Under the pieces are notes generated by a model, which saw nothing but the letters and a program-made list of their open reading frames with translations, did no database searches and was not told the origin of the DNA. This document shows, piece by piece, positions 29,432 to 41,969 of a stretch of DNA of 41,969 nt. The position numbers and the translations under genes are program-made. Every line of letters begins with the position of its first letter. Within the stretch, counting starts at the first letter, position 1. The stretch is from Candidatus Levyibacteriota bacterium (GTDB taxonomy: Bacteria; Patescibacteriota; Microgenomatia; Levybacterales; UBA12049): NCBI GenBank assembly GCA_013816255.1, contig JACDET010000006.1:4586-46554 (forward strand). The letters are read 5' to 3'.

Positions 29432-30604
29432 CTATCTTTTCTTTGTAGTATTTTTAACTACGCTCTGATCAGAGTTTAATTGTATAAGTGCTTCAAGCAA
29501 AGCTCCAAGAGCCATGAAGAGGAGGATTGCTATTGCTAACCATCCGAATACGGGAATGAAGAGTAAGATGAAAAGAAGTATTGGACCGACGATAGCAGCT
29601 TTCCAGTCGAGTTCGTACGCATGTTTATTATTGCGATTCCACCAGTGAAGTACGGCCCAGCCGAGAAATAGTTTGACGATAAATATGCCGACGATAAGTG
29701 TGAGAAAGTAGAAAAGATACGTGGCTAGACCGAGCCAAATCAGGAATAAGAAGAATATACCAGCAAGTGGGACGAGGGCGATGTATCCAAAACCAATAGC
29801 GCCACTTCTCAACGGTGTTCCCCGCATACGATTGACAACTGCCATAAGAGCGCGTCTGAAGAAATAGACGAAGAGCAAGCTCAGAATAATATCTGTAACG
29901 AGCTTATACAACGCTACTGTCGTCAGAAATGCTCCCGCTGCGTCATCCTCTCCATCATTCTCAGTCAACTGATAGTCAGTTCGTCCTGAAATAGTTGCTC
30001 CCTGTGCAATCTCTGCACGCTTTGGGGATTCATAGGAGAGGTTTCCTGCTACTTTTGCACCCGATCCGAGTGTCAACGCTTCAATTTCTCCACTGACATT
30101 CCCACCAACACTATTATTAAGTGTAATATCTCCACCATTAATCATTACTTTTCCGGCCACTGGTCCATCAACTTGTAGCTTCCCTCCAGCAAAGATCAGA
30201 TCTCCTCCAATTGTTGCATTTTCAGTGAGCCTTATATTTCCTCCTGCTATAACTAAATCATTGGCAATTGGTCCATCAATCGTTATATCGCCACCAGCGA
30301 TCCTGGCATTATTACCCACTGATCCAGCAAGGGTTATATTTCCGCCAGCAATTAACGCGCTTCCCTCAACGTTACTGTTGATAATAATATCTCCACCAGC
30401 AAGAGTGAGCTCATTTGCTATAGGCGAATCAACCTGAATAGCACCGCCAAATATGTACGGATTAACAAGTGTTTGGTTTGTGTCAGTGATGCGTATCTCG
30501 TCACCGGCTCTGAAGTCGGCAGCATATATAGGAGGAGTAATGAGCGTGGTACATACAAGGGCTAAGGAGAAACATACTGTTAGCAATCGAAGTAGTTTTT
30601 TCAT
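29432..30604 (-). CDS. Exported bactofilin-like beta-helix protein with C-terminal membrane domain
   Basis: 390 residues from the ATG at 30604 (an earlier TTG at 30610 is less likely). A signal peptide (about 1-27) is followed by a long array of short repeats such as LAGGDIIINSNVEG, LIAGGNITLAGSV and ARIAGGDITIDGPI (about residues 40-200). These resemble the polymer-forming right-handed beta-helix of bactofilins. About four membrane segments make up the C-terminus (about 230-375). This suggests an envelope scaffold that assembles outside the membrane. Specific function unknown. A TGCTATAAT promoter lies 18 nt upstream. Confidence 0.7.
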   Translation of the reverse strand: MKKLLRLLTVCFSLALVCTTLITPPIYAADFRAGDEIRITDTNQTLVNPYIFGGAIQVDSPIANELTLAGGDIIINSNVEGSALIAGGNITLAGSVGNNARIAGGDITIDGPIANDLVIAGGNIRLTENATIGGDLIFAGGKLQVDGPVAGKVMINGGDITLNNSVGGNVSGEIEALTLGSGAKVAGNLSYESPKRAEIAQGATISGRTDYQLTENDGEDDAAGAFLTTVALYKLVTDIILSLLFVYFFRRALMAVVNRMRGTPLRSGAIGFGYIALVPLAGIFFLFLIWLGLATYLFYFLTLIVGIFIVKLFLGWAVLHWWNRNNKHAYELDWKAAIVGPILLFILLFIPVFGWLAIAILLFMALGALLEALIQLNSDQSVVKNTTKKR

Positions 30605-30622
30605 ACACAATGTATTGTAGGG

Positions 30623-30742: not shown

Positions 30743-31126
30743 GTGAGCATCAGCAATCATATTGCAGAAAAAATGAACGAAAACATACAAATCCCAGAAG
30801 ATATTAGACAATTTCTTGATGGCATGTTGCAAGAAGCGGGCATGCTCACTCTTGATGATCAAATGCGTGAGGGAATGATTCAAGAACTCTTCTATCAATT
30901 AGATAATTATTTGGCAAGCGTCATTGTAAAAAGTCTGGAACCCGAAGATCTCGAAACGTTTATCAAAATGAACGAGGAGAAAAAATCAAAAGTTGAGATT
31001 GAACAATTTATAGCACAAAAAGTACCAAACGCACAGGAGATTTTCTCAGGTGCGATTATGGAATTTAAAAGACTGTATCTGGATAATGTCGCGACAAAAC
31101 GCGATGAACAATCAGGCACAGAGTAA
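30743..31126 (+). CDS. DUF5663-like small helical protein
   Basis: A 127-residue acidic, all-helical protein. The pattern IPEDIRQFLDGMLQEAG, then QELFYQLDNYLASVIV, and PEDLETFIKMNE resembles DUF5663 proteins often found in CPR genomes; function unknown. The start is uncertain. GTG at 30743 lies inside the strong Shine-Dalgarno AAGGAGGTGA (30737-30746), and the first ATG is 30 nt further on (30773). The ATC at 30749 is in frame at ideal spacing. The gene ends 2 nt before the giant kinase gene, so the two are probably co-translated. Confidence 0.6.
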   Translation: MSISNHIAEKMNENIQIPEDIRQFLDGMLQEAGMLTLDDQMREGMIQELFYQLDNYLASVIVKSLEPEDLETFIKMNEEKKSKVEIEQFIAQKVPNAQEIFSGAIMEFKRLYLDNVATKRDEQSGTE

Positions 31127-31128
31127 CT

Positions 31129-34100
31129 ATGGCTGAAAACGCTGAAGCATTTCCAAGCGCCCCAACCAAGGCGCCTTCTGCCGTCGGTTCAAAAGAATCG
31201 GGGTTTTCTCCTGCGCCAACCGCAAAAGCCGGCGAAAAAGCTGTGCCAGCTAACGGAAAGCCAAAGGATGTACCGATTGCTCCAACGGATACAGACAAAG
31301 GGGCTCCACAACCTGAACCGCTCAAAGTAGAAGCAGATGAGAATGGTGTGTATACCGCAAATGTGGTCAACCGCCAGGGTGATCTGGAAAAGCGTATCCG
31401 TAAAGAAGCTCAGGATCAGGTCCGGGAACACCAACAAAAAGGCAAAGCCTGGGATATCAGAACGTGGCCCCGAAAAATGCGATTCCGCTTTGGTGAAGAC
31501 TATTATGTACAGCGTGGTATCAAGATGCTCCGCGATGAAGCCGTAAAGAATAACAATGTCTTTTTGGACATGGATATTATCAAAAAGAGTATGCGTGATG
31601 CTGGGCGGAATAAGGCAGAGCATACAAGTGAAGCACATGACAAGCTTAGACAGATCAGTTTGGGACAGCAGATAGAAGGAGATACCAAGTTCCAAGATGT
31701 AAAAGAAGCGCAAGGTCCGCTTAAGGATCTCATGGTGAAGGAGATCTTCAAACCAATTGTCGACGGAACGATCACTGATGAGGCGGGAATTCAGAACAAA
31801 CTTCGTGAATTTGTAGCTGCGCATGAAAATCATGCTGATCAGAGCGTCAAAGATCAACTCAATGCAATGTTTGGACAGGGTGCAACGGAATTCGCTGAAC
31901 GTGCAAAGATCTTTGCTTCTGACTTTTTGGAAGTTGGGCAAGCAATCAAAAGTGATGTGGAGGCAAATAAGTTTGCAGTTGATAAGATTGGTGACAAGGT
32001 CCGAATAAATCTGGCCAATACTGAATGGGCAGCTTCGACACAGACGAAATTTAGCAGAGCAGATCAGCTCGCTACACGTTTGAAAAGTACAAAATATGGT
32101 GGCTGGGTGAACGAGGCAACGGTTGGGGCTTTTGTTTCAGTTGGAACGTTCGTCGCATGGCGGGGTGCGGGGCAATCACTGCGGGCTGTAGGTTTTGGCG
32201 TAGGCGCAGGTGCAGTTATGGGGTATTTTGAGCGCAACCGCAATCTCAAAAAAGACATCGCAACACATAGAGCAGATACTGAGTATGGGCAGAATATTGA
32301 TACAACCAAACGAACAGGTGGAAAGGGTAGGGTTTTAGATTCTTTGGACATGCGTAAAAAGCTTGAGACGTTCAGGTACAAAGAAATGGCTTCAGTGAAC
32401 GATATCCTCAATAGCGATGAAGACCGTAATACGGTAGGCGGTGACTCGAGGAGTTTGAATACACTATTATCACTTGATATCTCAGGCGGGAATTTTGCCA
32501 ATCGTGATGCGCTTGTACGAAGAGTTGCTGAAATCCAGGAGCGTCTCAAATTCTCAGCAGATCAAGGTGCAGGGATGATTCAGTTTGCTGAAGGAAAACA
32601 AGTTGAACGGGGGAGATTGGAATTGGTCAAAGGTATTGTCCAAGGGAAAGAGGCACTCGTCAAGTCGATCATGGCTACCGGTGTGAGTGAGGCTGATGCT
32701 CGAGGTGAAGTGGGGAGACTCGTTCAATCTTCAATGAATGATTGGGAAAAACGTTTCACCGGTGATACAGAGCAACAGGATAAAGCGTTTGCAAGATACC
32801 GAGTCGCTTCGTCTTTGCGAATGGGTGCATTTGGTGGAGCTGTTGGTTTTGCCTCTGCTGTTTTAGTACAGCAAGGAGTAGCGGAAATTGGTGCGCATCC
32901 TTTTGATAACAAGCCTGTTAATCCGACACTCCTTCAGAAAGCCGATGCGGCAATAGGTACAAATCTAATGGAGAATCACAGTATCCCTAACGCTGAAGCA
33001 GTCAATGGTTTGCGGGAGGCGTTGAGTAATAATCAGCCGAATGAAGTAATGGCGAGATTTGGAGAAATCGGAATACAGACGCATACTGAGCTTGATGGGA
33101 GGATTATTATCGATAAAGTGAATGGTGCAACTATCGATACTCCTGTTCCTCCTACCCTGACGTATAATCCAGATACCACATCATTCACTTTCGCCGGAGA
33201 GCTTCCTCCACAGGTTGAAGGAGTATTAAAACAGAACTATTTTGATATTAATACACAACCTAGTCCCTCAGAAGCAATTAATGCGAACCCAGGGGTTACA
33301 GAGACTGTTCTGCCGGGTACAGATACGAAAGTAAGTATTCCTAATGGTACAGAACTACGTCCAGGAGAGAATGGAACATGGGATCTTGTTACAAAGGATG
33401 TTACAACTCCTCAGAGCGTCATGCAGGAGACCAAGTTCTCAACGCCAGGTGCATATGGAATAGGGGGAGAAAGCGTTACTATACCTGGTGAAGGGGCCCC
33501 GATTAAGATCGCCGAAGGATTACAGTTTAGCGCAACTGGTGAAATGACCGCTTACAATATCGTCAGGCCTGATATTATCCAACTTGGAGAATCAGTCCCG
33601 GGACCTGAGACGACGACGAATGTGGAACAATGGCTTGGTGAGAATACTGCTCATGTTGATGGCTATCAATGGTATGGCAATGACTCAGGGAAATCAGATA
33701 ATAATGAATTGCGGCTCTATGATAATCGCGTCCCAGGTACTGTTCCCGGTGAAGATGCGATCCGGTTTGATATGCTCTCTATGGAGAACAGTTGGCAAAA
33801 TGGTAATTTCCCACCAAACGTCGATGTCCCTGATGCTATCCGCGATGACAAAGCTGTATTTACCTTCTGGGATAAGGGAAATCCGAACGAACCGATAATT
33901 GTGAAGGCTGATCATGGACAGATAACGCTAGATAAAAATTCTGATCAGATGATACAAGTATGGAAAACGGGTCCTGACGGTACGCAACAATGGATGGATG
34001 TCAAGAATTCCGAAGTTGCCAACGTCGTCGTCGGAGATATGCGGGATTTTGAATCAGGATCAGATGTCGGCTACAAAGATATTTTGAACTACAACGTCTC

Positions 34101-37100
34101 AGCCGGTGATGTCCAAGAACGCCCAGATGGCCGAACCATTGTCAGCTCCTACGCCACCGCCACCGGTACAGGCAGCCCCCCAGCTGAAATCCCCGGCGGT
34201 CAATCCGAGATCACAACCTTTAAAGCCGTCCAATCAACAGAAATAAAAATGCCCGACAGCTGGGAACCAATGCCAATAGTAATCCCAGCCACACCGAGAA
34301 GGCATTTGAAGGATGGGGAGAAATCTGAGAATGAACAATCTATTACAGCTGCTGCTCTTCCTTCAGAGATAGATAAACCAGAAGATGCAGAAGATAGTGG
34401 GTATGACTACGATGATAGTGAATATGATTATGATGATAGTGAATACGACTATGATGATAGTGAAGAGCAAAAATTAGATGCTATCGATGCAACGCAATTA
34501 GTAGATTCACAAGTCAGATCGCTGCATGATGATGCAAATCAATTATTAAAAGATGGTAAACCTCGAGAAGCTATAACAATGTATGAACAAGCAATTGATC
34601 TTGCCGGGGATAAAACACCATGGAGTGTTTACTATAATCGAGGAAGAGCAAATGCAGCTGTCGGAAATTCTAATGAAGCAATTATCGACTATGAGGAAGC
34701 AGCTCGATTAGAACCTCTCTCAGCCAAGCCAGTATTTCGATTAGGACAAACCCATTTTGCAGCAGGTGATCTCGACGCAGCAGAGGCGGCATTCCAAAGT
34801 GCGATTGACCTTCCACTTCGGGACGGAGACGAAGACGCCCAAAGAAGAGCGAGAGCAGGGTTAGTAAGGATAGCACGAAGAAGACAAACAGCGTCTGGGG
34901 AACCCCGTCAACGAGAAAGTCTTCGATTTACGCACCCTAAAGATATAGAAAGATACGATCGGTTACGAGAATGGGTAAGAACGCATCCGGATGTTCATCA
35001 TCCATATCATCAACAGACTCGTGAAATAATGACACCAACTGGACCACAGACAGAAGTAGTTAAAGATGCACGAGGACGAGAAATATGGTTGGATGAAAAG
35101 GGACAACCAATTGAAAGAAATACAACAAGAGAAAAAGCTTTTATAAAAACATACCTAGATGGACAATATGCAAGAAACAGAGTCTATGATTCTCGTTTTT
35201 CTGACTATAAAGAATTTTTGCAAACCAGCACTGCAGCAATGGCTCCAATGAAAGAAGAGTGTCGAGTTTCAATTTGCCTCCCTGCTATGGGAGAAGGTCG
35301 TATTATTTACGATGCGCTTTCACAATATGTCACACAAACAGATAGTGCAGGAAATGAAGTAGATCCTGATAGTTGGGAGATGAATGTATTAGTAAATAGA
35401 AAAACTGGAACCCCTGCAGATAGCACTGTGGCAGAGATTCAACGTTTTGTTCAAGATATTAATGATGAAAGAGCGCGTACTGGTAAGAAATTATTCAATA
35501 TTAATTTTGCAGATGTAGAGTTTGATCCACCTAAATATAACAACGTTGGTACGGCTCGAAAAGTAGCAACAGATCTAACATTTTACCGCTCCTTACAACG
35601 ATCAAAACAAGTAGGTCCTTTGTATATAGCTCCGGAAGATGCAGATATCACGCATGCTGATCCACATCTCGTCCATACTATTATGACGAAGCTTGATGAG
35701 AACCCGCAGTTGGATATTGTTCGCGGGACACAAGACAGAGATCCTGAAATTATTATGCAGAACGATTACCTTTTTCTTAGGAGACGGTTAGATGACTTTA
35801 AAAATATTTTCATGACTAGCAAGGATTATCGATCAGAAGACACAAATCCTAATTACAATTTCCGATTTAATAGGATTGTTCCCAGCGGATGGAATACTGC
35901 ATTTAGCGCAGAAGCAATAGCATTATCAGATGGGTATTCTGATCGGGCTAAGCTGGGAGAGAACCGTATTATGGCAGAAAAGATTACTATGCTTAGAGGA
36001 GATGGGACAAGACCAAATCTTGAAGTAATAGGCAGAATGGGTACACGAGCAGAGTCCTCACCACGGAGATTTATCGCTGAGGTTATTTCTGGGCAACCAG
36101 CATATGAAAGTTTTGACGATACGGAAATAAACGCTTTGATAAGAAAATTTGATGACACAGAACTTTTAGGTATGATAAGCTCAGATGCTCGAATCACAGA
36201 AGAAAACCAGGCAAAATTCGAGGAATTAATTGCAAATCACATTGTTCGAAATGCAAAGATGAGTCCTGATCCTGTTAAGTATGCTGATTCAATGATGTTC
36301 TGGCTTGGGTTTAAACGCCAGGCGAAAGATGGCAAAGGTCAACAGCTACCATCAGACTACACCGTTGATGATGATGGAAGAGTACATATCACGAACTGGT
36401 CGAATGTATCAAATGCATTACATGATTATAGGACAAGACATAATCGTCCAAGAGAACAGGGTGAACGATGGGGCAATCGTAAAATGCCAGAAGGGCAACT
36501 CGCTACTTTCCCAAGACGGTATACATTAGCTGAGCTACAATCGAGTACGCAGACAGAAACACGAGGCAACTACACCGTATGCTTGGATAGAAAAATAGGT
36601 GAAGGATGGAATGGTCAAGTAGTAGCAGGTTATGATAACCGGACAAATACAGTTGTAGCTGTAAAGACATTAGATAAACAATACGTAGAAGATGTAGCGC
36701 AACAAAATATTCGTATTGATAGTGTCAACGATGCTGAAGATTACATTAAAACCCAAATTACTTCTCCCGATCCATCGCTTTTATTATATGAAGAAAGATT
36801 TGAGGAAGGTAATGATGTTATCAAAATATATCCGGCAGTTTCAGTAAACTTAGCAAAACAGATAGAACAGGGAGGGAAAATGGCTCCCCAACAAGCAGTA
36901 GGAATTACACAACAATTACTAAAAGGAGTTTCACAATTGCATCAAGCTGGCATTGGGCATTTTGATATAAAACCTGGAAATATCCTCTTTGATGAGCAGG
37001 GCAGAGCGTATCTATCTGATTTTGACGAAGTCACTCGGTGGACCGCTCGTGAAAAAAGATTTATTCGCCCACCATTAACAGCAAGTAACCTTATTATTCC

Positions 37101-37878
37101 CCCTGAAGGAGTAACCGCAAACTTCCAAGGATTGACTGCAAATGGAGACACTTATGAAATGGGTATAAATCTCTACTATATGCTGGAAGGAAAGTATCCA
37201 TTCGATCCTAAGAATGCAAGAGCAGCAGAGAAGAGCAAGATGTATCGAGAGATAGAACAATCAGGAATAACAGGGGGGAAGCGGAAAAGAGCAGAGTATG
37301 TCAGAAGACTGAAAGAATCAGGAGACATATCGTTCTCTACAGATGTACCAGATGCATTACAAGCAGTAATACGAAAATCACTGCAATATACACCAGCAGA
37401 TCGATATCAAAGTGCAGCAGCGATGGCAAATGCTTTGGAGAATCTACCTCAATTCACATCACCTGATGCAGATACCACTGTAGAGGCTGAGCAAAATATG
37501 GAAGCGTTTATCAATTCTATGCCAAGAGGGTTTAATAGATACAAAGCTGAAGCAATTGAACAAGGGAAAGCATTCCTTCAAACACCCGAGGCACAATCGC
37601 ATGGTCCAAAGCAGTCTGAACAGGATCTCCAAAATTTTTGGAAGTTTTATCTCGCTTACCCTCAAGATAAATTGCGAGAAGATGACTCAACCGTTGGTAG
37701 CGATTTGAAAAAGGAAGTGCAAAGATATATACCAGCAGATATAACTGATACAGATGAGCGAGAAGAAATAACGCAAGTCATCGGTAAATTTTTTGCAACT
37801 AACCCTGGATATCAACCTTCACCAGATCAGATCCAAGTTCTTATACAAGCATATAACGTCGTTGATACAGTAATGTAA
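31129..37878 (+). CDS. Giant TPR / glycosyltransferase-like / Ser-Thr kinase fusion protein
   Basis: 2249 residues, unusually large for a CPR genome. In order: a Pro/Ala-rich N-terminus; a charged helical part (about 60-325); two hydrophobic stretches (about 330-368 and 562-588); a large extracellular-looking region (about 600-1060); an acidic repeat YDYDDSE x3 (1092-1112); a TPR cassette (about 1131-1250); a GT-A-like domain (VSICLPA from about 1379, EDAD at 1503-1506); and a protein kinase (about 1815-2130). Kinase motifs are intact: GEGWNGQV 1824-1831, Lys1846, HFDIKPGN 1944-1951, and DFD 1964-1966 in place of DFG. Architecture suggests envelope-linked signalling coupled to glycan synthesis; this combination is not one I know. 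Confidence 0.8.
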   Translation: MAENAEAFPSAPTKAPSAVGSKESGFSPAPTAKAGEKAVPANGKPKDVPIAPTDTDKGAPQPEPLKVEADENGVYTANVVNRQGDLEKRIRKEAQDQVREHQQKGKAWDIRTWPRKMRFRFGEDYYVQRGIKMLRDEAVKNNNVFLDMDIIKKSMRDAGRNKAEHTSEAHDKLRQISLGQQIEGDTKFQDVKEAQGPLKDLMVKEIFKPIVDGTITDEAGIQNKLREFVAAHENHADQSVKDQLNAMFGQGATEFAERAKIFASDFLEVGQAIKSDVEANKFAVDKIGDKVRINLANTEWAASTQTKFSRADQLATRLKSTKYGGWVNEATVGAFVSVGTFVAWRGAGQSLRAVGFGVGAGAVMGYFERNRNLKKDIATHRADTEYGQNIDTTKRTGGKGRVLDSLDMRKKLETFRYKEMASVNDILNSDEDRNTVGGDSRSLNTLLSLDISGGNFANRDALVRRVAEIQERLKFSADQGAGMIQFAEGKQVERGRLELVKGIVQGKEALVKSIMATGVSEADARGEVGRLVQSSMNDWEKRFTGDTEQQDKAFARYRVASSLRMGAFGGAVGFASAVLVQQGVAEIGAHPFDNKPVNPTLLQKADAAIGTNLMENHSIPNAEAVNGLREALSNNQPNEVMARFGEIGIQTHTELDGRIIIDKVNGATIDTPVPPTLTYNPDTTSFTFAGELPPQVEGVLKQNYFDINTQPSPSEAINANPGVTETVLPGTDTKVSIPNGTELRPGENGTWDLVTKDVTTPQSVMQETKFSTPGAYGIGGESVTIPGEGAPIKIAEGLQFSATGEMTAYNIVRPDIIQLGESVPGPETTTNVEQWLGENTAHVDGYQWYGNDSGKSDNNELRLYDNRVPGTVPGEDAIRFDMLSMENSWQNGNFPPNVDVPDAIRDDKAVFTFWDKGNPNEPIIVKADHGQITLDKNSDQMIQVWKTGPDGTQQWMDVKNSEVANVVVGDMRDFESGSDVGYKDILNYNVSAGDVQERPDGRTIVSSYATATGTGSPPAEIPGGQSEITTFKAVQSTEIKMPDSWEPMPIVIPATPRRHLKDGEKSENEQSITAAALPSEIDKPEDAEDSGYDYDDSEYDYDDSEYDYDDSEEQKLDAIDATQLVDSQVRSLHDDANQLLKDGKPREAITMYEQAIDLAGDKTPWSVYYNRGRANAAVGNSNEAIIDYEEAARLEPLSAKPVFRLGQTHFAAGDLDAAEAAFQSAIDLPLRDGDEDAQRRARAGLVRIARRRQTASGEPRQRESLRFTHPKDIERYDRLREWVRTHPDVHHPYHQQTREIMTPTGPQTEVVKDARGREIWLDEKGQPIERNTTREKAFIKTYLDGQYARNRVYDSRFSDYKEFLQTSTAAMAPMKEECRVSICLPAMGEGRIIYDALSQYVTQTDSAGNEVDPDSWEMNVLVNRKTGTPADSTVAEIQRFVQDINDERARTGKKLFNINFADVEFDPPKYNNVGTARKVATDLTFYRSLQRSKQVGPLYIAPEDADITHADPHLVHTIMTKLDENPQLDIVRGTQDRDPEIIMQNDYLFLRRRLDDFKNIFMTSKDYRSEDTNPNYNFRFNRIVPSGWNTAFSAEAIALSDGYSDRAKLGENRIMAEKITMLRGDGTRPNLEVIGRMGTRAESSPRRFIAEVISGQPAYESFDDTEINALIRKFDDTELLGMISSDARITEENQAKFEELIANHIVRNAKMSPDPVKYADSMMFWLGFKRQAKDGKGQQLPSDYTVDDDGRVHITNWSNVSNALHDYRTRHNRPREQGERWGNRKMPEGQLATFPRRYTLAELQSSTQTETRGNYTVCLDRKIGEGWNGQVVAGYDNRTNTVVAVKTLDKQYVEDVAQQNIRIDSVNDAEDYIKTQITSPDPSLLLYEERFEEGNDVIKIYPAVSVNLAKQIEQGGKMAPQQAVGITQQLLKGVSQLHQAGIGHFDIKPGNILFDEQGRAYLSDFDEVTRWTAREKRFIRPPLTASNLIIPPEGVTANFQGLTANGDTYEMGINLYYMLEGKYPFDPKNARAAEKSKMYREIEQSGITGGKRKRAEYVRRLKESGDISFSTDVPDALQAVIRKSLQYTPADRYQSAAAMANALENLPQFTSPDADTTVEAEQNMEAFINSMPRGFNRYKAEAIEQGKAFLQTPEAQSHGPKQSEQDLQNFWKFYLAYPQDKLREDDSTVGSDLKKEVQRYIPADITDTDEREEITQVIGKFFATNPGYQPSPDQIQVLIQAYNVVDTVM
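34402..34464 (+). repeat. Three tandem 21-nt repeats encoding YDYDDSE
   Basis: Three adjacent 21-nt units within the giant gene encode residues 1092-1112. They form an acidic, Tyr-rich linker between the N-terminal half and the TPR cassette, with possible phosphorylation sites. Confidence 0.85.
34508..34885 (+). repeat. TPR cassette shared with the minus-strand TPR protein
   Basis: The roughly 120-residue block from QLLKDGKPREAI to RAGLVRIARRR recurs twice in the minus-strand gene at the right end, with shared TPWSVYYNRGRA and RDGDEDA motifs. At DNA level 34613-34650 matches the reverse complement of 41756-41793 at 36 of 38 positions. Confidence 0.8.
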
Positions 37879-37900
37879 TCAGCACTATTTATAGTATCTT

Positions 37901-40699
37901 ATGACAGCAAGTCCAGAAATTACAGTACAGAGAGAAGCAGCAGATACATCAAATGCAAATGCTTTTGAGGCACAGGTATTAGTTCATACGCCAAAAATTC
38001 TTTCAGAAGAAATACGAACACGTGTTAATAGTCTTAATGCTTTAGGAAATACTCCTGATGATGATTCAAAAGCTGAAGAGATTGAAAGAGAACTTGGACT
38101 ACTTGAAGATCGAAAAAAATTGCTCAGGCAAGACGCCCACGCACCGGATCTTAATACATCTCATGAGAGATTTGATGCAATTGTCGCGGAAATGGGGGCA
38201 ATGGATGAGGATGCTCGACAGGCCGAAGATAATGTTTTTTTGGGATTAGCAGTTCGTCATAAGATCTTGCGAGAACGGAGAAGAGTGTTAGTTGGGCAAT
38301 CAATGGGTCTTGCCGGTGTGGCAGCATTACCTGTTGAACCAATCCCAGCAGTACCAGCACACGTTGATTTAGCACCTCAGCATAGCGTGCCTATACACGA
38401 GCAACTCCCACATGCTGATTTGGGCGACGAGGTGCAAGCTGCGAGTCCTGAGCCGGTGGGGAAGAGTACTGTATTAAAAGATAGTTATTCATTAACCGCT
38501 GATATGAGAGATGTGCTGGAAAATGAAACAGAGGACGAACATACATTTTTTGTTGAACCGCAATCGTTGTCAGAGTTTCTTGCTGAAAAGACAAGGTTAG
38601 CTCATGATACGAAAAATTATGACCAGCTCTTTGGAGGGACAACGTACACTGATGAAGTCGATGGGCTTACATGCAAAGTTGAAGGGGATGAAGTTATCGT
38701 CAGTGGTGGGTATAACTATCTCACAGGAAATAATGATCGAGAGTTTTTTGAGCATGCATATCTGAAACGGGCAGCTTTTCAGGTAAGCCCTGAAGGCAAA
38801 CTTGTTCCCGTCGGCAAGGTAACACTAAGAAATAATTATGGTATTCCTTACAGCAAACAAGACGTAGCATCTTTTGACAGAGAGGCTTTTGGAGATAATT
38901 TGGCAGCGCTTATTAATCAACGAATTGATCCTACATGGGAAGCTGAAGGGTATGAAATTAAAGATGGCCAGCTCGGTATACGTACTGCACGCAATAAGGA
39001 CGTTCCTGCCGGTACTCGTCGAGTTGAACCAGGTGTTCCGCTTGATGTGATTGAGGGCGATAAACCTGCTACATATTCTAAACCAATTCTCAATGGCGAA
39101 TATCGAAGTGGTGGTAAAATGTATGTTTTGGAAGAAATAAAAAAAATCAATGTAAATGGAGCAGTGATACCTAGAAACAGAGAAATGGTTCCAACACAGG
39201 TGGTATTGCGCGGACCAGAGGGAGAGAGACTAACCTTTGATTATGATAGATTCCGACGAGAAATAAATAGGCCAGATGGGGCATATGCATATATACAAAA
39301 AATTGTTGACAAGACACAACCGTTGCCTGTCTATGAAGAAAAGACAACTAAAATCCCAGTTCAAAGTGCTCCATCTCCAGAGCAGCAGCCAATCGAACCA
39401 GTTCTACCAGAAGAGGAAACTACTGTTCTTGCTCCAGCAGGTGGGAATGATGATATAGAAAAGACTACACTTCCTTCCGACCCGAATGCTGATGATCCAA
39501 CAGTAAAGATAGAAGTTCCTCCTGACAAACGTGATACTGATCCAACAGATACGCAGCCAGGCGTACCGCCTGTCGTACCTACGCCTGATAAGGCACCTAA
39601 GGAGCCACCTGTTCTTGAAAATACTGTTGCTGCAATGAATGCGGTTGACATACCTGCTGATGCTGAGGCAACGCAAGAATCAGAGAGTGTTACGCTTGTA
39701 CAGACAGAACCTGCAGATAGTGAAACTGTTATAAGTGAATTACCTCCTACAGCGCAATTGCCAGAAGCAATGGCTGAAGAATTGCAGAAAGAAGCTGCAG
39801 ATACGCACGAGTTTGTCCTCGATCCACAAACAATTTCTGATTTCCTTGTTCAAGAAACACAGCCAAAGAAAAATAATTTATTTGGACAAAATCTACAATT
39901 TGATAATCTTAAGATAGGTATTGAAGACGGCCGGCTTATTGTAAGTGGGAATTTCTCAGTGAACGGCGTGCTTTCAATGCATCTTGATGACGCTGTATTT
40001 CGACCAAATGCAGCGGGGAATTTGATTCCAATTGGTCCAATTGATTTTCAAGAAATGGGAGTAATCAATGGAAGCGAATCTACAATGGATGCAGGAAGGA
40101 GAGATCAATTACATATCTCAGCAAGATCAATTTTAGATAATTTCGGCACGTGCTTACGGATGCTTACAGATCAAAGTATGCAGCGTGTTGATACTTCATG
40201 GAGAGCAAATGCATTTGCTATTGATGGTGATAAACTACGCATCCTCACAGAAAGAATTCCGGACAAACCCGCTCATTTACCTGAACCAAGTGAACCAAAA
40301 GAATCTGTAGTAGAATCCACTGGCGCTTTTGATCCTTTTGCTGATGATGAAGGAGAATTAACAGGACAATCAGAATCTGTTCTGCAAGATAACGTTGCAG
40401 AAGTAACAGATATACCTGAACAAAGAGATGTTGTAGAGCATACACAAACACCGCATATGCCTAACGAAAATACTTTATACACTGATGAAAAAGGTCAAGA
40501 ATACAGACTTGTACGGATTAAAAAGGCAAATACAAACGGTGCAATTTTACCAAGAAATCGAGCAATGCAACCAGTCAGGGTTGTTTTAAAAAGAACGGAT
40601 GGGAAAGGAAAGATTTTTGGAGAGAGGGTAGATTATCAAGAGTTTGAAAGTGATATTAATAGTCCTACTGGTAGATTTCAACCCAAAGCTGATGAGTAG
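37901..40699 (+). CDS. Hypothetical protein with two homologous modules
   Basis: A 932-residue protein I do not recognise. It has no membrane segment or signal peptide. Two copies of a two-part module are visible. Part A is at about 213-367 (EPQSLSEFLAEKTRL to YEIKDGQLGIR) and again at 636-790 (DPQTISDFLVQET). Part B is at about 397-465 (KKINVNGAVIPRNREM) and again at 859-927 (KKANTNGAILPRNRAM). A Pro/Thr/Glu-rich linker (about 470-630) separates them. It follows the giant kinase gene by 22 nt and may be a partner or substrate. A decayed third copy lies just downstream. Confidence 0.7.
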   Translation: MTASPEITVQREAADTSNANAFEAQVLVHTPKILSEEIRTRVNSLNALGNTPDDDSKAEEIERELGLLEDRKKLLRQDAHAPDLNTSHERFDAIVAEMGAMDEDARQAEDNVFLGLAVRHKILRERRRVLVGQSMGLAGVAALPVEPIPAVPAHVDLAPQHSVPIHEQLPHADLGDEVQAASPEPVGKSTVLKDSYSLTADMRDVLENETEDEHTFFVEPQSLSEFLAEKTRLAHDTKNYDQLFGGTTYTDEVDGLTCKVEGDEVIVSGGYNYLTGNNDREFFEHAYLKRAAFQVSPEGKLVPVGKVTLRNNYGIPYSKQDVASFDREAFGDNLAALINQRIDPTWEAEGYEIKDGQLGIRTARNKDVPAGTRRVEPGVPLDVIEGDKPATYSKPILNGEYRSGGKMYVLEEIKKINVNGAVIPRNREMVPTQVVLRGPEGERLTFDYDRFRREINRPDGAYAYIQKIVDKTQPLPVYEEKTTKIPVQSAPSPEQQPIEPVLPEEETTVLAPAGGNDDIEKTTLPSDPNADDPTVKIEVPPDKRDTDPTDTQPGVPPVVPTPDKAPKEPPVLENTVAAMNAVDIPADAEATQESESVTLVQTEPADSETVISELPPTAQLPEAMAEELQKEAADTHEFVLDPQTISDFLVQETQPKKNNLFGQNLQFDNLKIGIEDGRLIVSGNFSVNGVLSMHLDDAVFRPNAAGNLIPIGPIDFQEMGVINGSESTMDAGRRDQLHISARSILDNFGTCLRMLTDQSMQRVDTSWRANAFAIDGDKLRILTERIPDKPAHLPEPSEPKESVVESTGAFDPFADDEGELTGQSESVLQDNVAEVTDIPEQRDVVEHTQTPHMPNENTLYTDEKGQEYRLVRIKKANTNGAILPRNRAMQPVRVVLKRTDGKGKIFGERVDYQEFESDINSPTGRFQPKADE

Positions 40700-40811
40700 C
40701 ACCACCTCTCTAGCATTTAGAGCCTGTAGTATCCACGCTTTATCAGTAGAGCAGGTGCACGAAGCGATGAGTAACGAGTTTGTTGGATAAAACGGACAAG
40801 AACATATTTTT

Positions 40812-40953
40812 GCATTTGACCCTTTAAACATTCGCAGACGAATGATCTTTGGGATTTGGGACAGCATTAGCAACAATGCTCAATAGGCGTGTTAATAAAA
40901 ATGTAGAGTTTAGTAGGTATAAAATTAAAGATGGTCAACTAGGTATAAAATAA
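40812..40953 (+). pseudogene. Decayed third copy of module A from the 932-residue protein
   Basis: Frame-shifted remnants align with the upstream gene. AFDPLNIRRRMIFG matches SFDREAFG in one frame. Then FGTALATMLNRRVNKN, followed by YKIKDGQLGIK and a stop, match FGDNLAALINQRIDPT and YEIKDGQLGIR in another frame. No start codon or complete frame remains. The rest of the gap 40700-40990 shows nothing I can support. Confidence 0.7.
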
Positions 40954-40990
40954 GGAGAGAACTAGAAATGTTGCATACACGTGCTAATAT

Positions 40991-41969
40991 TTAACGACTT
41001 CTTCTATCTTTCCAACGCCTTTTTGCCCAACTCACTGCTCTTGAAACAGGGTCTGGATCTATACTTGGTTCAGGTACAGCAACATTTCTCAGTTCAGCTA
41101 TCCTTGCTAATCCTTCTCTTGCTTTCCTATGTGCATCTTCATCTCCCTCTCTCACAGGAATGGTAGCCGCATGGTTGAAAGCTCTCTCTGCAGAATCAAG
41201 ATCGCCTATTGATAGATAGACCTCTCCCGATTGCCATGCTGGTTTGACTGAACGTGGTTCTAATTGTCCGGCATGCCATAGATCGCTAATCGCTGCTTCT
41301 GGGTTTCCATCCGCAAGATTTGCTCGCCCTCTATTGTAATAAATATTCCAGGGTGTAAGTCCTCCACCTCGCGCTATTGCTTGCGTATATGTTGCTAGTG
41401 CTTCTTGTGTTCGTCCTTCTGTTAATAATTGATTTCCACTTCCGCCCAGCTTTCGTATTTCCGCTCTTATTTCTTTCTGGTCTTTTTCTAGTCTTTTCCG
41501 TTCATCTTCCATTCTTTGTTCAGAAACTTTAGTTACCTTTACTAACCCAGCTTTCGCTTTCTCTTGAGCTTTTTCATCTCCATCTCGCACAGGCATGGTA
41601 GCTGCATGGTGGAAAGCTGTCTCTGCTGCCCCCAAAAGGCCTGTTGCCAGATATGCTTCTCCCAATCTCCAAAAAGGCTTAACGGAGTCAGGCTCTGATT
41701 GAGCTGCTATTTTAAAGTCTCTAACCGCATCCCCGTATCGTTCAGTTGCAGCATATGCTCTTCCTCGATTATAGAAAACACTCCAAGGTGTTTCTGTTCC
41801 ACCAAGTGCTACTGCTTGTTCAAAAATTGCCAAAGCCTCACGGGCGTTGCCGTCAGCTAGAAGCTCATCTCCCGTCGCACCCAACTCTCGTACTTGTTTT
41901 TCTATTTTTTTATTACGAGCACCTGCTTGTTCAATAACAACTGACGTAACATTATCTTTCGAGTGATGT
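40991..41969 (-). CDS. TPR protein, probable C-terminal part of a PP2C-type phosphatase (5' end beyond window)
   Basis: The frame is open to the window edge, so the gene begins outside; a TTG at 41884 is not its start. The first visible residues, HHSKDNVTSVVIE, resemble the last conserved motif of PP2C Ser/Thr phosphatases (DN-V/I-T followed by a hydrophobic strand). Two tandem TPR cassettes of about 120 residues follow, both with TPW(S/N)(V/I)(F/Y)YNRGRA and a final RxGDE motif, and a basic C-terminus (WAKRRWKDRRSR). Both are close relatives of the TPR block in the giant kinase. The phosphatase call rests on few residues and is tentative; the TPR call is firm. Confidence 0.65.
   Translation of the reverse strand, partial: HHSKDNVTSVVIEQAGARNKKIEKQVRELGATGDELLADGNAREALAIFEQAVALGGTETPWSVFYNRGRAYAATERYGDAVRDFKIAAQSEPDSVKPFWRLGEAYLATGLLGAAETAFHHAATMPVRDGDEKAQEKAKAGLVKVTKVSEQRMEDERKRLEKDQKEIRAEIRKLGGSGNQLLTEGRTQEALATYTQAIARGGGLTPWNIYYNRGRANLADGNPEAAISDLWHAGQLEPRSVKPAWQSGEVYLSIGDLDSAERAFNHAATIPVREGDEDAHRKAREGLARIAELRNVAVPEPSIDPDPVSRAVSWAKRRWKDRRSR

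Follow-up and report, generated by a model that had tools for sequence, protein, structure and literature searches.

A predicted glycosyltransferase-kinase protein and a neighbouring predicted PP2C phosphatase share an exclusive TPR cassette in a Microgenomatia bacterium

Do a protein kinase and a protein phosphatase that are encoded close together, and that carry matching TPR modules, act against one another? This question is raised by a locus in the 1.55 Mb draft genome of an uncultured tiny-genome bacterium (G000; 78 contigs, 79.9% complete, 0.43% contaminated). A first-pass annotation of the window (the whole stretch of 41,969 nucleotides analysed here, G000:C65:4586-46554) had proposed that a kinase and a probable PP2C phosphatase share common partners and form an antagonistic signalling circuit, with the 932-residue protein encoded between them as a candidate target. 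Contig C65 stops at the last base of the window, so this annotation had to work with a truncated phosphatase gene. Here the gene was completed, the domains of both proteins were characterized (Table 1), and relatives were sought in 82 genomes of the order (81 others) and 374 genomes of the class (373 others).

Table 1. Features of the kinase-phosphatase locus, in window coordinates
Feature	Coordinates	Strand	Basis or remark
DUF5663-like 127-aa protein	30743..31126	+	directly 5' of the kinase-protein gene; Pfam DUF5663 E=0.0015, under the cut-off
2249-aa protein: conserved N-terminal region, inserted TPR cassette, predicted GT2-like domain, predicted Ser/Thr kinase	31129..37878	+	
Conserved N-terminal region of the large-protein family (alignment A1)	31306..32928	+	identity to relatives
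Three acidic YDYDDSE repeats, within the insertion, just 5' of the TPR cassette	34402..34464	+	translation
TPR cassette of the kinase protein, aa 1131-1256	34519..34896	+	
Predicted GT2-like (GT-A) glycosyltransferase domain, EDAD (DxD) motif	35209..36168	+	model, fold and profile matches
Predicted Hanks-type protein kinase domain, aa 1820-2099	36586..37425	+	PF00069 E=4.4e-28
932-aa orphan protein with internal repeated segments, without known domain	37901..40699	+	
3' half of the predicted PP2C-TPR phosphatase gene	40991..41969	-	5' half is C71:10650-11780
Last PP2C motif HHSKDNVTSVV with the fourth metal-binding Asp	41936..41968	-	aligned with the GRDNVTVVV end of tPphA
Phosphatase TPR cassette 1	41504..41887	-	own-genome search, pairwise identity
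Phosphatase TPR cassette 2	41072..41452	-	own-genome search, pairwise identity

A search of the draft genome for the PP2C family gave three places. One of them lies on contig C71 (11,782 bp), which ends in a 377-aa open reading frame that has a PP2C_2 match and runs off the contig. The final codons of this frame (...GHHSKDNVTAVV) repeat the first residues of the window frame, and the ends of C65 and C71 overlap by 36 nt with one T/G mismatch. The overlap sequence occurs at no other place in the genome, even when 3 mismatches are allowed. The two halves were read as one gene encoding a 691-aa protein, a PP2C phosphatase followed by two TPR cassettes. A misjoin of two near-identical genes, in which case the window gene may carry something else upstream, would fit the mismatch, since a clean assembly overlap would be exact, but is very improbable: the overlap is confined to the two contig ends, the halves are complementary and both broken inside the same terminal PP2C motif, their G+C contents agree (44.7 and 44.8%), and a strain variant at the assembly break, most simply the source of the mismatch, would account for the contig break as well.

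The joined protein is a predicted PP2C/PPM enzyme. Its catalytic part scored 44.3 bits with PF13672 (PP2C_2; cut-off 24) and matched 5d2u, a cyanobacterial phosphatase of known structure, with an E of 5.5e-10; we take 5d2u to be tPphA (its database record reads protein serine-threonine phosphatase). The best NCBIfam match was the Stp1/IreP model, again over the catalytic part only. All four metal-binding Asp are present, within the motifs RSVNQD (43), DGVGG (130), SDGVSE (294) and SKDNVT (369), and the alignment and motif positions place about 80 residues between the first two motifs, where 5d2u has fewer. The first-pass annotation had recognized a PP2C-like end in the truncated frame, and the sequence that continues beyond position 41969 bears this out: a PP2C domain lies upstream of the TPRs, with DGVGG as anticipated and RSVNQD in place of the anticipated RxxNED, the Q for E being shared with tPphA.

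The kinase domain of the 2249-aa protein matched PF00069 with 98.8 bits and retains the catalytic residues Lys, Asp and Asn, as well as the Asp that binds metal (VAVK, HFDIKPGN, SDFD). The canonical HRD and DFG triplets are not present, their places being taken by HFD and DFD, and the relative in G047 has HLD and DFN. These triplets are not universal in Hanks-type kinases, and non-RD kinases exist. The HFD and DFD triplets, with the catalytic Asp kept, mark a putative non-RD kinase and do not exclude the Hanks-type family, so that the protein is a predicted Hanks-type Ser/Thr kinase. The best NCBIfam matches were PknB/Stk1 models, over the catalytic domain only, and no match to PASTA repeats was found in the protein (PknB_PASTA scored 85.7 bits against a cut-off of 450, for the kinase domain only). 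A phage-defence reading was also considered (PD-T4-6, MADS, BREX PglW) and rejected: the PADLOC matches are generic and confined to the kinase domain, with none for the neighbours.

The kinase protein belongs to a class-wide family of large proteins with a shared N-terminal region, mostly a GT2-type domain, and a variable C-terminus. The N-terminal stretch is 38-39% identical to its counterparts in G047 and G066, and 23% to that in G019. Pfam searches with the N-terminal region alone or with the glycosyltransferase (GT) region alone gave nothing usable, and the N-terminal profile matched only designed helical proteins among solved structures. G047 encodes a relative of 2290 aa, with about 31% identity in the first 1000 aa, in which N-terminal region, GT domain and kinase all recur but TPRs are absent; its IIPIPFAPRHPL linker (PRHPL-type) runs straight into the GT region. 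The same linker is followed by a GT9 domain (PF01075) in G066, and a similar one by little else in G019. In the window protein the linker is followed by the acidic YDYDDSE repeats and the TPR cassette, and then by the GT domain. Given the TPR-free relative in G047, the cassette is most simply read as an insertion in this lineage, the alternative being a loss in G047. Among the family members examined, the TPR insertion was seen only in the window protein.

Pfam did not recognize the middle domain of the window protein. Searched as a profile, it turned up in 19 of the 374 class genomes, mostly within proteins of about 1300-2140 aa. A model built from 19 sequences reached a pLDDT of 80 and a pTM of 0.83 (pLDDT 35 from two sequences), and its best fold matches in the PDB were GT2/GT-A enzymes, namely chondroitin polymerase, cellulose synthase, PcManGT and TarP (best E 5.9e-9), at 10-16% identity and a TM-score (query) of 0.4-0.5. 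The profile also matched PcManGT (6yv7, GT2) by sequence (E 1.1e-4). The Pfam GT2 family PF00535 was matched by 4 of 22 family members, the window protein not among them, and the DxD motif, EDAD in the window protein, is degenerate in some relatives. These results point to a GT2-like glycosyltransferase with a predicted GT-A fold and a DxD motif. Likeness to K4CP (chondroitin polymerase), PcManGT and TarP extends to the fold and this motif. In contrast to those enzymes, the window-type domain is part of a very large protein whose C-terminus varies and is a protein kinase in three cases, and it goes unrecognized by Pfam in most members. The three cases are G000, G047 and G192, the only genomes of the GT-domain set with a Pkinase C-terminus, where GT and kinase are fused.

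The family has a recurrent genomic setting. Most related loci have a DUF5663-like gene adjoining the gene for the large protein, and the latter usually follows directly 3'; often a divergent gene is present as well, a homologue of a putative membrane peptidase gene in G047. The pair of a DUF5663-like gene and a very large GT2-like protein gene was seen at window positions 30743-37878 and at loci L021, L023 and L055-L072, in many families of the class, and the C-terminus of the large protein may be a kinase, GT9, APH-like or other. VirB4- and PrgI-like genes, so named from reading their sequences, are close by in G047 and G066 and not in the window. In G066 (L023:12333-18958), where the large protein ends in GT9, the next gene encodes a 574-aa protein with weak similarity to HipA-like/PI3K-like kinases; GT and putative kinase are here separate neighbours and not fused. 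Divergent from the DUF5663 and kinase genes, window positions 29432-30610 encode a FapA-like beta-solenoid protein with hydrophobic C-terminal segments, a homologue of which is found near a GT gene in L069. Open frames of 10,737 and 6,962 aa were also seen in the class, at G371:C44 and G356:C29, with two protein kinase matches each. Our literature searches found no work on DUF5663 or on giant Microgenomates kinases, and no description of the DUF5663 and giant GT2 protein gene pair. The kinase protein itself is a more notable result than its pairing with the phosphatase.

The genes of the locus form two convergent groups, with the DUF5663, kinase and 932-aa genes on one strand and the 1559-aa and phosphatase genes on the other. 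The kinase and phosphatase genes are tail to tail and share no common operon, and a terminator was looked for between the convergent genes and not found. A G+C content of 43-46% is common to the kinase, phosphatase and 1559-aa genes, compared with about 40% in nearby DNA, a shared rise that speaks for the module favoured below. The 932-aa protein contains two copies of IKK.N.NGA.(I/L)PRNR.M.P..VVL and other duplicated stretches, with Thr/Pro-rich linkers between them. It has no Pfam, NCBIfam or PADLOC match and no homologue in the 81 other genomes of the order. Its proposed role as the target is a guess, to which nothing but its position points. The 1559-aa protein encoded directly upstream of the phosphatase (L007:5952-10631) likewise has no homologue in those 81 genomes; it shows an apparent tandem duplication and short DYxxxFxxDSxxxF repeats near its C-terminus.

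The relatedness of the TPR cassettes, as first described for this locus, was substantiated. The three cassettes have pairwise identities of 47.6, 50.8 and 48.0% over 126-127 aa. Used as a query against its own draft genome, the kinase cassette matched the two phosphatase cassettes with E values of 1e-36 and 2e-35, and these three places were the sole matches up to E = 10. Within the class, the phosphatase-plus-cassette protein had no other match at E<=1e-10 in the 373 other genomes. By these comparisons the likeness is far above chance and above generic TPR resemblance, and the sharing of the cassette is real, exclusive and local. The cassettes are equally distant from one another, and the kinase cassette is therefore not a recent copy of either phosphatase cassette.

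A claim that matching TPRs indicate common partners gained no support from the residues conserved among the cassettes. Taking helix-A positions 2, 5, 6, 9, 12 and 13 as presumed ligand-facing, 6/17 residues of the binding face are invariant, compared with 15/59 elsewhere and 14/24 structural consensus positions, so that the binding face is not preferentially conserved, a pattern that gives no support to a common ligand but leaves room for one. The invariant residues include W1 and Y5-N6-R7-G8-R9-A10 of repeat 2 and K2-P3 of repeat 3. The carboxylate clamp of TPR co-chaperones consists of K5 and N9, N6, and K2 and R6 in three repeats; at these positions, K5 is found in none of the three cassettes, N6 and K2 in all three, and N9 and R6 in two.

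Comparative genomics did not reveal a conserved pair. No homologue of the phosphatase was found in the 81 other genomes of the order, and no other genome among the 374 of the class has this phosphatase or the cassette. At the level of families, Pkinase was matched in 24 class genomes and PP2C_2 in 63; both were matched in 7, where 4.0 are expected (Fisher p 0.088, or 0.16 without the genome of the window, counted from match lists). Co-occurrence in related genomes, which the first-pass annotation had named as a check, thus gives the pair no support; moreover G192 (98% complete), which has a close kinase homologue and the most similar kinase architecture in the class sample, has no PP2C_2 match. 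The draft genome also encodes a second kinase, an LRR-kinase on C74, and two more PP2C genes, on C66 and C1, and the pairing is therefore not forced. A 1260-aa protein at L008:2901-6683 has two PP2C-like domains in tandem (the second recognized by eye), and a 429-aa protein at L002:6748-8037 carries leucine-rich repeats together with a protein kinase domain. From the genomes sampled, the pair appears neither conserved nor the only possible pairing in the genome. What stands of the proposed antagonistic circuit is a predicted PP2C domain upstream of the TPRs, neighbouring genes and an exclusive cassette; convergent transcription, the other kinase and PP2C genes and weak co-occurrence speak against it. 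Proximity and the shared cassette make an antagonistic pair plausible, and a neighbouring kinase and phosphatase that share an exclusive docking cassette would be reasonable antagonists.

Known systems resemble parts of the locus. Dedicated pairs of an STK and an STP are a common find, and PPM phosphatases often serve a single kinase that shares their operon (PMC6213207). As in PrkC-PrpC, PknB-PstP and Stk1-Stp1, a eukaryotic-like Ser/Thr kinase and a PPM/PP2C phosphatase are encoded close together. Unlike those pairs, the window pair has no PASTA repeats and convergent genes instead of an operon, the same TPR cassette occurs on both proteins, and the kinase is fused to a predicted glycosyltransferase and a 1000-aa N-terminal region. 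PknG is also a bacterial Ser/Thr kinase with a TPR domain, which couples the kinase to its substrate and acts as a scaffold governing substrate phosphorylation; its TPRs are C-terminal to the kinase, whereas those of the window protein are far N-terminal, before the GT domain, and the accessible part of the PknG account describes no related cassette on a phosphatase (PMC8546545). PP2C with TPR is already among the bacterial PP2C domain arrangements, and a cassette common to phosphatase and neighbouring kinase is not mentioned in the accessible part of that survey (PMC12088040). Kinase-PP2C pairs, TPR-bearing kinases and TPR-bearing PP2Cs are all known already. Within the limits of our literature search, neither a private cassette shared by a kinase and a phosphatase nor a GT2-kinase fusion is known to us from earlier descriptions.

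We tentatively favour a model, which we rate somewhat short of an even chance, in which the products of the locus make up a reversible phosphorylation module: the GT-kinase protein stands at its centre, and related TPRs bring the phosphatase into the same complex. One copy of the shared cassette would have been inserted, in this lineage, into the large GT2/kinase protein, between the PRHPL-type linker and the GT domain. The kinase would phosphorylate proteins recruited by the cassette, its own long low-complexity linkers, or partners of the GT domain, and the phosphatase, recruited through its related cassettes to the same complex, would strip those phosphates. Since a single polypeptide holds both kinase and GT, the process controlled would probably be the synthesis of a glycan or glycopolymer by the GT domain. 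The domains, motifs, shared cassette, fusion and neighbouring genes can be read from the sequences; catalytic activity, the sharing of a partner and control of glycosyl transfer are inferred.

The main competing explanation is local duplication of a building block: TPR DNA would have been copied between neighbours, and the two proteins would act in separate pathways with different TPR ligands. Several of the results above fit this explanation. The three cassettes are about equally diverged (47.6-50.8% identity), so there was ample time to gain different ligands, and by the same measure the duplication within the phosphatase goes back as far as the exchange between the genes. The binding face holds no excess of invariant residues, the co-occurrence of the families is not significant, and C-terminal modules are readily shuffled in the wider family. 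However, random copying between neighbours would have no preference for enzymes with opposing actions, and in the draft genome only this kinase and this phosphatase received the cassette. As the cassette is found only in two neighbouring genes and is absent from the 373 other class genomes, that it spread to just a kinase and a phosphatase is probably no accident. We regard the building-block explanation as a serious possibility, if a doubtful one.

A further alternative, which we consider improbable, is that the main task of the phosphatase is to undo autophosphorylation of the kinase protein or its GT domain, the TPRs linking the two proteins with no third protein recruited. TPR modules can self-associate, and the long, disordered-looking linkers would be available as sites. 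The usual dedication of bacterial PPM phosphatases to one kinase (PMC6213207) also agrees with this alternative, but the closest kinase architecture occurs in a near-complete genome, G192, that is without a PP2C.

Returning to the reversible module, it would at its broadest be a phosphorylation switch on a glycosyltransferase megaprotein in Microgenomatia (Patescibacteria), with the kinase built in and a TPR-matched phosphatase resetting it. Such a switch would have evolved locally from a class-wide glycan system of DUF5663 and GT2 proteins, which some relatives encode beside VirB4-type secretion genes. Taken as a whole, this wider picture is unlikely, though worth stating. Protein phosphorylation in Patescibacteria appears little studied. 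If the model holds, kinase and phosphatase partners marked by a private docking cassette would let the wiring of a signalling pair in a small genome be read off. More widely, DUF5663 and the giant GT2 protein constitute a recurrent class-wide gene pair with a swappable C-terminal enzyme.
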